Part shown: positions 10,920 to 63,056 of the stretch, piece by piece
Numbering within the stretch: the first letter of the stretch is position 1
Layout of the letters: each line of letters opens with the position of its first letter
Source: Candidatus Gastranaerophilales bacterium
Lineage (GTDB): Bacteria; Cyanobacteriota; Vampirovibrionia; Gastranaerophilales; Gastranaerophilaceae
Direction: 5' to 3'
Length of the DNA: 64,000 nucleotides
NCBI GenBank assembly: GCA_944325885.1
Contig: CALVBT010000004.1
Span: 186,001 to 250,000, forward strand
Made by a program: the position numbers and the translations under genes
The notes under the pieces: generated by a model
What the model was told of the DNA's origin: nothing
Databases searched by the model: none
Seen by the model: only the letters and a program-made list of their open reading frames with translations

Positions 10920-11168
10920 ATGACAACAATAATCGGTATAAAAATAAATAACAGAGTAGAAAACGCCGTACAGGTTCAGGAAATTTTGACAAAATACGGC
11001 TGCATAATAAAAACAAGAATAGGACTCCACGAAGAAATCCATGGCCAATGTTCGCCAAGAGGACTGATTCTGCTTGAAATTATAGACGACAAAGCCAGCG
11101 TCGATATAGCCAATGAGCTATGCGACATAGAAGACATTGAAATTCAGCAGATGAAATTCAATCCTTAG
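10920..11168 (+). CDS. ACT-like small protein, TM1266 / iron-only hydrogenase system regulator type
   Basis: An 82-residue single-domain protein with an ACT-like pattern. A first strand IIGIKINNR is followed by a helix VQVQEILTKYG, then the block IIKTRIGLHEE and a C-terminal LILLEII strand. This order matches the TM1266 family, often found beside Fe-only hydrogenase maturation genes. No hydrogenase gene is in this window. AAGGAG precedes the ATG. Its TAG stop overlaps, tail to tail, the TAA stop of the minus-strand gene ending at 11165. The family call is by pattern only. Confidence 0.6.
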   Translation: MTTIIGIKINNRVENAVQVQEILTKYGCIIKTRIGLHEEIHGQCSPRGLILLEIIDDKASVDIANELCDIEDIEIQQMKFNP

Positions 11169-12118
11169 TTTTCCACCATGTTCAACATATTTTTGAAAGT
11201 TTTTTGAGCAGATGCTCTGTGGAAACTCAAAATACCGTTAGATACACGGAATACAGGAGATTTTCTCTGCATTCTCATATCATAGGTAGCTTGATCAATT
11301 TTGCCCTGTTCAAGTTTCTTTTTATATTTATTTTTTGTTGTAATAATATTCAAACGAGGAAGGAAATAGCCGAGCAGTGCAGCCATAAATCCTATACCGC
11401 CGAGTTTTACGGAAGCCTGTGCATTTTTAGCAAACTTCAAAACTTTGTTGTCTTTAGCAACATTTTTAACAGCATTTTCCAGAGCCTTAAAGCTTTCTGT
11501 GCCTTTAGCCTGAGCATCTTTCAATGCATTTAAGATACCTGCATTGTCTTTTTCTTTAGTAATAGCATCAAGCTCTTTGGTAAATCCGAACTTGTTCATT
11601 ACTTTTCTGATGTTACCGCCGTTTCTTTCCAGCATTTCAGAAAGATTAATGAGCGGATTGTCAGCATTTTTCAATTCTGAATACCAGTTATCAAGCTGGG
11701 ATTGAGAAGTAAATGCAGTGTCTTTAAAAGAGAATTTCTTTCCGCTTGTGACAATCGGTACACCTGATTTTTTTGTAATCATATAAGCAACAGCACGGTT
11801 GATAAGCGGTGCGCCGCCTGCTGACAAAGCTACTGCGGGAACGTCACGTGTAATAACTTCACGTTTTTCATCGTTATCTCTTGATTCAAAAAATCTGCCG
11901 CCGAGCATAAACATTGTACCGACAGCAAAGAATGCCGCTCTTGTTAAAGAACCGTTGGAATCAATATTACAGTGTTTGCCGAGCCATTCAAAAGCCTGTC
12001 TGCCGGCACTTTGAGTTGAACCAAAAGAAGGCTGGTTAGCATTACGATTATTTAAATTTGTTCTTGATGCGTTAGAAGCAGAAGAATAAGCTGCTGTAGA
12101 AACATTATTTATTTTCAT
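11165..12118 (-). CDS. unknown membrane protein with Asn/Ser-rich PSFG leader (A)
   Basis: A 317-residue protein of unknown function. Residues 1-29 are rich in Asn, Ser and Ala and end in QPSFGS (29-34). Hydrophobic segments lie at about 61-74, 93-113 and 235-255, the last followed by a basic linker and a tail with KSPVFRVSNGILSF. There is no Sec signal peptide. A strong AAGGAGG lies 6 bases before the ATG, inside the end of the upstream gene, which overlaps by 14 bp, so the pair is coupled. The opening MKINNV resembles MKLNSV of the partner. Confidence 0.75.
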   Translation of the reverse strand: MKINNVSTAAYSSASNASRTNLNNRNANQPSFGSTQSAGRQAFEWLGKHCNIDSNGSLTRAAFFAVGTMFMLGGRFFESRDNDEKREVITRDVPAVALSAGGAPLINRAVAYMITKKSGVPIVTSGKKFSFKDTAFTSQSQLDNWYSELKNADNPLINLSEMLERNGGNIRKVMNKFGFTKELDAITKEKDNAGILNALKDAQAKGTESFKALENAVKNVAKDNKVLKFAKNAQASVKLGGIGFMAALLGYFLPRLNIITTKNKYKKKLEQGKIDQATYDMRMQRKSPVFRVSNGILSFHRASAQKTFKNMLNMVEN

Positions 12119-13061
12119 TTACAGCCTCCTTTCCTTCATTTGCTGACGCAGACTGTGCTGCAGGTGCAGCATCACCGGTATTCAACCCGTCTTTTCCGGG
12201 GAATTTTTTGTCCGTCTGATAAAGCTTTGGAATAATCAACAAGAAAGCAGACAATGCTGATACAGCAAGGATATTTGTAATAAGTCTTAAATCATGAACT
12301 TTCTTGTGGAATTTATCAATAAATGTGCCTCTGTCTTCTTTTGTTTTAGCAGCCTTTTTAGAGAAATCATCGAGATAGTTTCTCATATCGCTGAACAATG
12401 AAGAAATGCTGTAAACTTCTTTATCGCCGCCGATTTTTATCTTGTCAGCACCGTCGATAAATTTGCCGTTTGCTTTGTTCAAAGCTGTCAATGTTGCTAC
12501 GGCTTCTTTTTTCAATTGTTTTGTTTTAGCACCTTTTTCAAGGTTTTTCTTCATCAAGTCAGCCAGTTTGTCAACAAGACCTCTTTCTTTGTCATAACCG
12601 GCAAAAGCTTTTTCTGTCAGTTTATCAACAAAATCTGATTTAATAGCCTGATTTTTAATGTCGGCTGTTGTATTTTTCATGATGTTTTTAAATGAAGACA
12701 AAACATCGGTAGTAACTTTGGCAGACTTCCCTCTCAAAAGACCGACCGCAGCCATCATTGCTAACGGAACATAGAAAAATGCCGGGCCGGAAAGCAATTC
12801 TCTGACAAGTTCTTCTCTGCCTGCTTTATAATTAGGATGACCGAGTTCTTCATGGTTTCTCATATAACCCTGAATTGTTCTCGGAGTCATCATACCTACA
12901 GTATCTATTGTTAAAAACTCGCCTAAAAAACCATTATTCTCGATAAAAGTAGCAAATCCTACACCCAAATTACCGAAAGAAGGATTTTTAGTCTTTTTGT
13001 TGTTATCAGTTTGAATATTTTGCTGATATTGTCTAGTGTAATTTACTGAATTTAACTTCAT
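12105..13061 (-). CDS. unknown membrane protein with Asn-rich PSFG leader (B)
   Basis: A 318-residue protein, first gene of a coupled pair with the gene at 11165. The N-terminus (1-26) is rich in Asn, Gln and Lys and ends NPSFGN (26-31). A hydrophobic segment lies at about 92-108 (PAFFYVPLAMMAAVGLL), then a long Lys-rich helical region. A second membrane segment spans about 258-278, followed by a 37-residue Ala/Asn-rich tail. The two hydrophobic segments may put the Lys-rich middle on one face of the membrane. No known domain is recognised. TAGGA precedes the ATG. Confidence 0.75.
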   Translation of the reverse strand: MKLNSVNYTRQYQQNIQTDNNKKTKNPSFGNLGVGFATFIENNGFLGEFLTIDTVGMMTPRTIQGYMRNHEELGHPNYKAGREELVRELLSGPAFFYVPLAMMAAVGLLRGKSAKVTTDVLSSFKNIMKNTTADIKNQAIKSDFVDKLTEKAFAGYDKERGLVDKLADLMKKNLEKGAKTKQLKKEAVATLTALNKANGKFIDGADKIKIGGDKEVYSISSLFSDMRNYLDDFSKKAAKTKEDRGTFIDKFHKKVHDLRLITNILAVSALSAFLLIIPKLYQTDKKFPGKDGLNTGDAAPAAQSASANEGKEAVNENK

Positions 13062-16690: not shown

Positions 16691-16939
16691 CTATTTTGTT
16701 GATGCAAGTGCTTTATATTTTGCAGCAAGCTGATTGTACTGATCTACCTGAGCAACGGTAATACGTGCAAGGAAATCATACTTTGCATTTAATTTATCAT
16801 ATTCTTCTTTTGAAACAGTGGCAGATGAAAAAGCAGGATTGTTAGTATTAGAAGGAGCCTTGGGTTGAGGTTTTTCCGCATTCCCGAAGTTTCTTAAAGG
16901 TTGGCATGACATAACATTTGTGGCTAAGTTAACGCGCAT
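16691..16939 (-). CDS. small protein with NPAFSS leader motif, unknown
   Basis: An 82-residue soluble protein. The first 34 residues are rich in Asn, Pro and Ser and end NNPAFSS (33-39). The remainder is a helical coiled-coil-like region (about 44-80, EEYDKLNAKYDFLARI). A good AGGAG precedes the ATG (MRVNLA). The leader resembles those of the proteins at 11165 and 12105, but the rest is unrelated. It is a single-gene unit facing away from the sigma factor. Confidence 0.7.
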   Translation of the reverse strand: MRVNLATNVMSCQPLRNFGNAEKPQPKAPSNTNNPAFSSATVSKEEYDKLNAKYDFLARITVAQVDQYNQLAAKYKALASTK

Positions 16940-20641: not shown

Positions 20642-20839
20642 ATGATGAAACTAATCGTTTTTGTAATAGCTGTAGCCGCAATATGGTTTGCATACACAAA
20701 CTGGGGCAAACCTCTCAACGTTGACAATGCCGTCAAAAGCGGAACATCTGCAATAAAAACAGAAAAAAGCATCGACAGAGTAATCCACTCAAGAGAAAAC
20801 ACAGCCAAAGACAATAAAGAAATGCTGGATAAAATCTAG
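20642..20839 (+). CDS. small single-pass membrane protein, unknown
   Basis: A 65-residue protein with one N-terminal membrane segment (about 3-19, LIVFVIAVAAIWFAYTN) and a soluble, charged tail of about 45 residues. AAGGAG at 20627-20632 serves the ATG at 20642, although the next ATG at 20645 is also possible. Its TAG stop lies in the same CTAG as the stop of the minus-strand gene at 20836. No family recognised. Confidence 0.7.
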   Translation: MMKLIVFVIAVAAIWFAYTNWGKPLNVDNAVKSGTSAIKTEKSIDRVIHSRENTAKDNKEMLDKI

Positions 20840-21555
20840 TTACTTTGTCCTGCTCTGTAACCGCACCAAGCAAAAATTGCCGGCATAAACTTATCAAGAT
20901 GCAAATGCTCTACAATAGGAACCTTGGCAACAACAAGCGCACCCAGAGCGTCATCCATATTGATTATAGAGTCTTTTAATGTAAGCTTTCTATCCGGTTC
21001 TTTGTCTTTCGGGTCATTAATCATATTGGATAAAAATGCAGCCAGAGGCATGCCCGCAACAAGAGATGTAACAATTGCTGCGACCTTCACAGGCTTGGAA
21101 TTTTTATATTTTGTATTGTCTTCAAGAAGTTTCAACGCACCGCCTACAAGAAGAGTAGGTACTGTTGCGTTCATAAACTGGAAAACACCTTCTTGAACTT
21201 TACGTTTTTTGTTTGCTTTTTTATCAACAGCAATACCCGTAACAGCACCGCCTGCTATACTTGCGGTACTAAGAGCAAGAACTTCTTTTAAATGATAATC
21301 AATTTTAAATAGATTAATAGGATTTTTTAATGCCTGCTTTCCAAACTGCTTTTTTGCAAAATAAACCATAGGCAGCAATGTTGCAATAATAGAGCCGCCT
21401 GCCACTAAAGCTTTATTCTTCCAATCCGGTTCTTCTACCCTGTGATTTCTTTTATAATACAAAGTCGAATATACGTTTTTGGTGTGGGCAGTATTTTGAA
21501 AAGAGCTGAATACGTTCTTTTTTGATTTATTATTAGTGTTTACGGGCGTAATCAT
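20836..21555 (-). CDS. unknown multi-pass membrane protein
   Basis: A 239-residue protein with an Asn/Ser/Lys-rich N-terminus (1-46). Four hydrophobic segments lie at about 49-67 (LVAGGSIIATLLPMVYF), 93-111, 128-143 and 159-178. The C-terminal part has DALGALVVAKVPIVEHLHLD. Its leader has FSSFQNT rather than a clear PSFG motif, but layout and Gly/Ala-rich membrane segments recall the proteins at 11165 and 12105, so I suspect a distant relation. Function unknown. Confidence 0.7.
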   Translation of the reverse strand: MITPVNTNNKSKKNVFSSFQNTAHTKNVYSTLYYKRNHRVEEPDWKNKALVAGGSIIATLLPMVYFAKKQFGKQALKNPINLFKIDYHLKEVLALSTASIAGGAVTGIAVDKKANKKRKVQEGVFQFMNATVPTLLVGGALKLLEDNTKYKNSKPVKVAAIVTSLVAGMPLAAFLSNMINDPKDKEPDRKLTLKDSIINMDDALGALVVAKVPIVEHLHLDKFMPAIFAWCGYRAGQSN

Positions 21556-62258: not shown

Positions 62259-63056
62259 TTATCTTTTAAACTTCTGTTTTTTCAAAATATCAAAAATTTT
62301 GTCTTTTATTGTCTTTGGATTGAAAAAATGTTTTGGCGGTGCGACTGCACATCCGGGATCTATCAAATAAACTTTGCCGTTCTTTGCCCTGCCGAACTGC
62401 TCCTTTTTAATTATTGCATTTTCATCCTCTGTCAGCCCGCTATAATGCATAAGATAATCTCTCATTTTATATCCTCTGTTCTTGATTTGTCTTACGAGAG
62501 TTCTCAGTTCATCCTGTGCCAAATCGTTCTGGCTGACCTTTTCTTCAAGATAATAAAAAGTGTAGCCCTTATTCCCTGTTTTTAACAACGGCAAATCAAA
62601 AAAATCAGGCTTTCTGTTATTAGGAAAATGATTCATATCCGTTATTTTCAAAATTTTTCCGTCTGTTGTTTCAAAAACAAAAGCATAAGCACCCATACCT
62701 ATCATTTTATGGACTTTGTATCCTTTTAATTCGTTTATTCTTTTTATATCTTCACTCATTACTTTAATTTGTGTCTGGTTGTGAAGATGGCTCAAAAGTT
62801 CATAAGAAACATATTCATTCTTTGTATTAGCCAGAACTTCCAGTGCTTTATGCGGTTCTATCGGAGTTTTAAAGGTTATGCTCTTTAAATATCCGTTAAT
62901 TTCTTTTTCAACTAAAAAAGATACGCCTTTTACTCCCGTACAAAAAACATCCCCTTCCGATTTCATTCTGTTCGATGCAGGCACGGGTTGAAGTTTTTTT
63001 AAAACAGGCCTTTGTTTTTGGTTTATATTAAAATGATTTTGTGTACAGATTTTCAT
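62259..63056 (-). CDS. protein-kinase-like protein with Asn-rich leader
   Basis: A 265-residue protein with a partial kinase pattern. It has a glycine-rich loop MIGMGAYAFVFETTDG, a strand with a lysine (KILKITD), and a DFG-like YLIDPGCAV near the end. The usual HRD catalytic loop is not visible, so it is probably a pseudokinase or a very diverged kinase. The N-terminus MKICTQNHFNINQKQ, then GVKGVSF, recalls the Asn-rich leaders elsewhere in the window. I chose ATG 63056 over 63077 because it begins MKI like those proteins. Role unknown. Confidence 0.6.
   Translation of the reverse strand: MKICTQNHFNINQKQRPVLKKLQPVPASNRMKSEGDVFCTGVKGVSFLVEKEINGYLKSITFKTPIEPHKALEVLANTKNEYVSYELLSHLHNQTQIKVMSEDIKRINELKGYKVHKMIGMGAYAFVFETTDGKILKITDMNHFPNNRKPDFFDLPLLKTGNKGYTFYYLEEKVSQNDLAQDELRTLVRQIKNRGYKMRDYLMHYSGLTEDENAIIKKEQFGRAKNGKVYLIDPGCAVAPPKHFFNPKTIKDKIFDILKKQKFKR

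Follow-up and report, generated by a model that had tools for sequence, protein, structure and literature searches.

Several proteins encoded in a 64,000-nucleotide window of Candidatus Gastranaerophilales bacterium (bases 186001-250000 of contig C4) begin with a polar leader that ends in a short box centred on Ser-Phe, and this leader is very probably a real, selected sorting or docking motif. As read from the sequences, its general form is M-[KN]-[IV]-(Asn/Ser-rich, acid-poor, variable)-[VIP]-S-F-[GK]-x-x-(hydrophobic). About 70-85 mostly unrelated proteins per genome, including extra copies of housekeeping enzymes, would be recruited by this leader to a common destination.

The enrichment of the box was assessed over the whole genome (2.17 Mb, 37% GC, 19 contigs), for which 2,019 genes were called across all contigs; since a simple codon-usage caller was used, the start sites in this set are predictions. 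The original prediction had described the box as P-[SA]-F-[GS]. This pattern is indeed enriched at N-termini, with 21 occurrences in residues 1-60 of the proteome versus 2.3 expected (~9-fold), and the longer pattern [NQ]P[SA]F[GST] occurs 6 times in the same interval versus 0.2 expected (~26-fold), but the definition was too narrow and covers one corner of a broader box, [PVIN]SF[GK], for which 56 of 104 sites fall within residues 4-60 where 19 are expected (2.9-fold, log10 p -15). An unbiased ranking of 4,404 tripeptides by N-terminal enrichment is headed by SFK, followed by VSF. Motif discovery by expectation maximization was also tried and dropped, as it drifted to signal peptides and nucleotide-binding sites. 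A full leader score, which combines the box, the start M-x-[IV] and the polar tail and penalizes hydrophobic leaders, is passed by 76 genes versus 8.9 expected from pseudo-N-termini begun at internal Met residues of the same proteome. The box therefore stands above background frequency at N-termini, a check that had been set for the proposal at the outset.

Because the leader score itself rewards composition, the composition figures were taken from a set selected by regular expression only. In these leaders, residue 3 is Ile or Val in 53% of cases versus 17% of all proteins, the Asn fraction is doubled (0.145 vs 0.070), and acidic residues are halved or less (Asp 0.024 vs 0.048, Glu 0.023 vs 0.064). 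Downstream of the box, the fourth residue after the Phe (F+4) is hydrophobic in 59% of the tagged set, compared with 31% at F+3, 27% at F+5 and 36% for the F+4 position of internal SF[GKR] sites. The box itself ranges from residue 5 to residue 56, and 41 of 70 tagged proteins have its Phe within their first 20 residues.

In the window, the leader and box are found on the following minus-strand proteins.

12105..13061 (-): tagged membrane-type protein '13061', 318 amino acids, two hydrophobic segments, no Pfam match
12984..13061 (-): leader of 13061 (residues 1-26), rich in Asn/Gln/Lys; variable in orthologues, where no column ahead of the box is invariant
12972..12983 (-): box P27-S-F-G30 of 13061; F29 invariant in 18 orthologues
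11165..12118 (-): tagged membrane-type protein '12118', 317 amino acids; partner gene with a 14-base overlap with 13061
12032..12118 (-): leader of 12118, residues 1-29, from the orthologue alignment
12020..12031 (-): box P30-S-F-G33 of 12118, from the orthologue alignment and fused relatives
16691..16939 (-): tagged 82-amino-acid protein '16939', coiled-coil-like body, no Pfam match
16838..16939 (-): leader of 16939, residues 1-34, from the sequence
16826..16837 (-): box P35-A-F-S38 of 16939, a weaker box form, from the sequence
20836..21555 (-): possible further carrier, 239 amino acids, MITPVNTNNKSKKNVFSSFQN; score 5.2, below the main threshold

The leaders of the first three proteins (13061, MKLNSV...KNPSFGN; 12118, MKINNV...NQPSFGS; 16939, MRVNLA...NNPAFSS) are as the original prediction described them, and no Sec signal peptide is visible in any of the three, which also agrees with the earlier description; this absence cannot be generalized to the wider tagged set because hydrophobic leaders were penalized in scoring. 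The protein at 63056 had been put forward as a looser fourth case with a kinase-like body, and is rejected as an example: it reads GVSFLVEK, with no F[GKRT] after VSF, and its body has neither a kinase nor any other Pfam match. The carrier at 21555(-) was not among the examples given at that time.

The bodies behind the leaders had been regarded as unrelated. For the set as a whole this holds, with 84 sequence-independent groups among 96 tagged candidates (single linkage of the bodies at 1e-4) and several unrelated Pfam folds, so that the box is not part of one homologous domain family, but 13061 and 12118 may be distant paralogues, as suggested by a profile comparison (hhalign E 5e-6, probability 86, 102 columns). 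These two are therefore not counted as fully independent cases, and the case for an independent tag is made by the other families; a search of solved structures with the profiles of both returned only weak helical matches. At least six unrelated folds are represented among the tagged bodies (GT5, GH77, HD phosphohydrolase, AAA, TPR and DnaJ-domain), namely two GT5 glycogen-synthase-like proteins, one GH77 4-alpha-glucanotransferase, one dGTPase-type HD phosphohydrolase, two AAA ATPases, TPR proteins and one J-domain protein, and most of the tagged proteins that were scanned singly have no Pfam match. The membrane segments of tagged proteins are weakly hydrophobic and rich in Ala/Gly (33% vs 19%, p 4e-11).

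Tagged genes also cluster along the genome, forming 11 adjacent pairs where 2.4 are expected at random and the highest count in 500 shuffles is 8, and the largest cluster in this genome comprises about a dozen tagged genes (G000:C10:57867-80848, L110-L112). Members of this cluster include two AAA ATPases, one TPR protein and several proteins without a Pfam match. At another locus (G000:C3:21578-22284, L061), a tandem pair of small tagged genes encoding 116 and 119 amino acids lies a few kb from phage-tail-like genes. A phage origin was considered and rejected, as viral contigs yielded no relatives of four tagged families. For the tagged dGTPase, the listed phage matches are ~30-33% identical and leave the leader uncovered, because their alignments begin at query residue 53 or later.

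Comparison across the order indicates that the box persists where its surroundings do not. Matches to 13061 are present in 110 of 117 genomes of the order, and in 18 orthologues, with identity down to 26%, the box Phe (F29) is one of 22 invariant columns, while the tail ahead of it varies in both length and letters. For 12118, the box is kept as [PTV][ST]F[GS] in eight sequences of the same genus or near to it and takes the form SFQG or AFKG in four more distant orthologues; no clear box was seen in five orthologues from f3/f6 (L127, L129, L130, L133 and L137). Among enzymes, 25 of 30 GH77 homologues carry a box of the type F-[GKRSCE] a few residues past a variable start, and the five without it form a housekeeping-like group. 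Similarly, four long dGTPase copies from different families of the order bear an extension of 50-60 residues that ends in the box, whereas the ordinary copies of ~345 amino acids, found in most genomes, are without it. Several long GlgA-like copies are tagged as well, and untagged paralogues of GlgA, GH77 and dGTPase coexist with the tagged ones in this genome. Since the tagged copies keep the box and untagged homologues lack it, the tag marks extra copies rather than an enzyme family. Judging from these alignments, the box is under selection, being conserved while the surrounding tail drifts. Two of the GlgA-like proteins are long and divergent, with 832 and 974 amino acids (G000:C1:163421-165919 and C2:161442-164366); the one of 974 amino acids has a membrane segment behind the box, and a normal untagged GlgA is encoded at C4:300626-302074.

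A portable leader acting as a sorting, export or docking tag, as originally suggested, is supported by these observations. In the mechanism proposed here, a flexible Asn/Ser/Gln-rich, acid-poor tail starting with M-[KN]-[IV] would present the docking box [VIP]-S-F-[GK]-x-x-(hydrophobic), and the box would dock to one shared receptor. In a less certain step, this receptor would be the export gate of an order-wide flagellar-type type III export apparatus, from which the tagged proteins might then be exported or delivered. Export through such an apparatus is the leading, though tentative, reading. FHIPEP (FlhA) was found in all 114 genomes of the order that were searched, and two full-length classes can be distinguished: a flagellar one that is present in a subset, and a second one that also occurs in genomes that have lost the flagellar FlhA. 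In the window's genome, this second FlhA lies with FliF, FliH and FliI genes (G000:C12:7889-15260, L012), and the corresponding operon comprises FliF, a FliG-like gene, FliH, FlhA and FliI, starting in named relatives (L183-L195) with FlgB/FlgC/FliE-like genes, which were named from their sequence alone. No injectisome with a needle or secretin was identified here. Several outgroup families likewise have full-length FHIPEP with a similar score, and matches covering only the C-terminal part are listed for other f1 genomes. Most Gastranaerophilales known at the time of an earlier survey retain only a subset of flagellar genes (Soo et al., 2014; PMC4040986).

The Ala/Gly-rich, weakly hydrophobic membrane segments, together with a likeness to early flagellar export signals, would fit export. 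The general recognition pattern of the export gate is Phe-x-x-x-hydrophobic. Early flagellar subunits combine an N-terminal hydrophobic signal with a gate recognition motif, as in Salmonella FlgD (SIAV ... FLTLL; PMC8983047), and share with the leaders described here a small non-polar start, a flexible polar stretch and a short Phe-containing hydrophobic motif, in an order where a flagellar-type export gate is found throughout. In contrast, the box here is stricter ([VIP]SF[GK]), often lies 5-20 residues from the start, below the Salmonella spacing, and is also kept internally in fusion proteins, and the cargo consists of enzymes and uncharacterized proteins rather than rod or hook parts.

Several observations weigh against export. 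In most tagged proteins (Phe at or before residue 20 in 41 of 70), the spacing is too short for the rule established with Salmonella FlgD, in which the two export signals must lie at least 19, and preferably 24-30, residues apart (PMC8983047). The hydrophobic preference at F+4, present in 30 of 51 tagged proteins, is by these counts not significantly above that of internal [PVI]SF[GK] sites (15 of 33, 45%). No box appears in those N-termini that were read for the rod-type proteins encoded next to the second apparatus, and two outgroup families that possess the apparatus show no clear tag enrichment, although 200 kb and ~170 genes from each give little power. One candidate is a sigma factor (MSKSSVSFKS), although this may be a chance hit. 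Genome G045 has a tagged GH77 but no FliF match and only a weak, not full-length, FHIPEP match; since FliR is present and both missing genes share one operon in relatives, this is likely an assembly gap, and the idea that G045 keeps the tag without an export system was set aside. A further difficulty is presented by 13061 and 12118, whose genes overlap here, are separate in several genera and are joined into a single frame in many genera of the family to which the window belongs, encoding fused proteins of ~620-790 amino acids. In all seven readable fusions, from four genera, the box is found at the junction before the 12118 half; by the strict pattern it is also found near the start in six of the seven, and almost nowhere else in the chain. 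An N-terminal export signal has no need of such a second box in mid-chain, and its retention at the junction suggests that the box would behave as a docking motif able to work inside a linker.

Docking inside the cell is accordingly weighed as an explanation in its own right, plausible if somewhat doubtful. In this view, nothing would be exported, and the box would hold membrane proteins as well as enzymes on a scaffold in the cytoplasm, a patch of membrane or a condensate; it would act at any exposed site, mostly the N-terminus but at times a linker. This explanation accommodates the junction box of the seven fusions, a cargo that is cytoplasmic by function (GlgA, dGTPase, AAA, J-domain and possibly the sigma factor) and the free N-terminal spacing implied by a box anywhere from residue 5 to 56, but it leaves unexplained the strong N-terminal preference and the Ile/Val at residue 3. 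It also lacks a known scaffold: none of 60 genomes of the order has shell proteins of bacterial microcompartments (BMCs), and encapsulins were not searched. The junction box and a variable, disposable tail would equally be explained if a lineage-specific protease cut at or near S-F-[GK] and the same site parted the halves of the 13061-12118 fusion. This is improbable, as no protease has been identified and the hydrophobic preference at F+4, together with the Ile/Val at residue 3, suggests that the tail is bound and not removed.

Least probable of all, and by a wide measure unlikely, is that the leaders have no common function and reflect the usual composition of N-termini in a genome rich in AT, combined with the shared ancestry of a few families. 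Asn/Ser-rich N-termini are common (260 of 2,019 genes) and 13061 and 12118 may be paralogues, as this explanation would have it, but the box itself is enriched beyond composition, over both internal sites and pseudo-N-termini of the proteome, its Phe is invariant among the 13061 orthologues, and it is kept in tagged and not in untagged enzyme copies. Returning to export, its most far-reaching form would be an unrecognized sorting code, in which the box marks ~4% of the proteome, duplicated housekeeping enzymes included, for a flagellar-type machine that has outlived the flagellum and serves a large repertoire of effectors or surface proteins; in this form, the proposal is rather unlikely.

Other known systems offer partial parallels. 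Effectors of the type III system of Salmonella pathogenicity island 2 (SPI-2) share the N-terminal motif WEK(I/M)xxFF. As in the proteins described here, a short conserved N-terminal motif is thus placed on unrelated bodies, but its letters are different and the conserved region is longer. Chlamydia secretes its GlgA into host cells (PMC3722199), and this housekeeping-type glycogen enzyme has counterparts in the extra tagged GlgA-like and GH77 copies, for which export is only putative; unlike in Chlamydia, the tagged copies are separate paralogues that stand beside untagged ones, and some have a membrane segment. The encapsulation peptides of BMCs are likewise short tail motifs carried by several enzymes. 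A role of the tag in BMC cargo was rejected, as shell proteins (PF00936) occur in 0 of 60 genomes of the order, and the tagged set differs further in that it includes membrane proteins. In open-licence papers dealing with this group together with N-terminal motifs, secretion systems or type III secretion, no description of the tag was found.

Since most of the tagged proteins scanned singly lack a Pfam match, a common address label would provide the first access to a large, dark share of the proteome of these common uncultured gut bacteria, which are relatives of cyanobacteria. Internal docking by the box would imply a subcellular structure that, as far as the literature found can tell, is so far undescribed in the order. 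Should the box instead be an export signal, the flagellar gene remnant of members without a complete flagellum (PMC4040986) would acquire a purpose, and the tagged set would provide a ready list of proteins that possibly act outside the cell.
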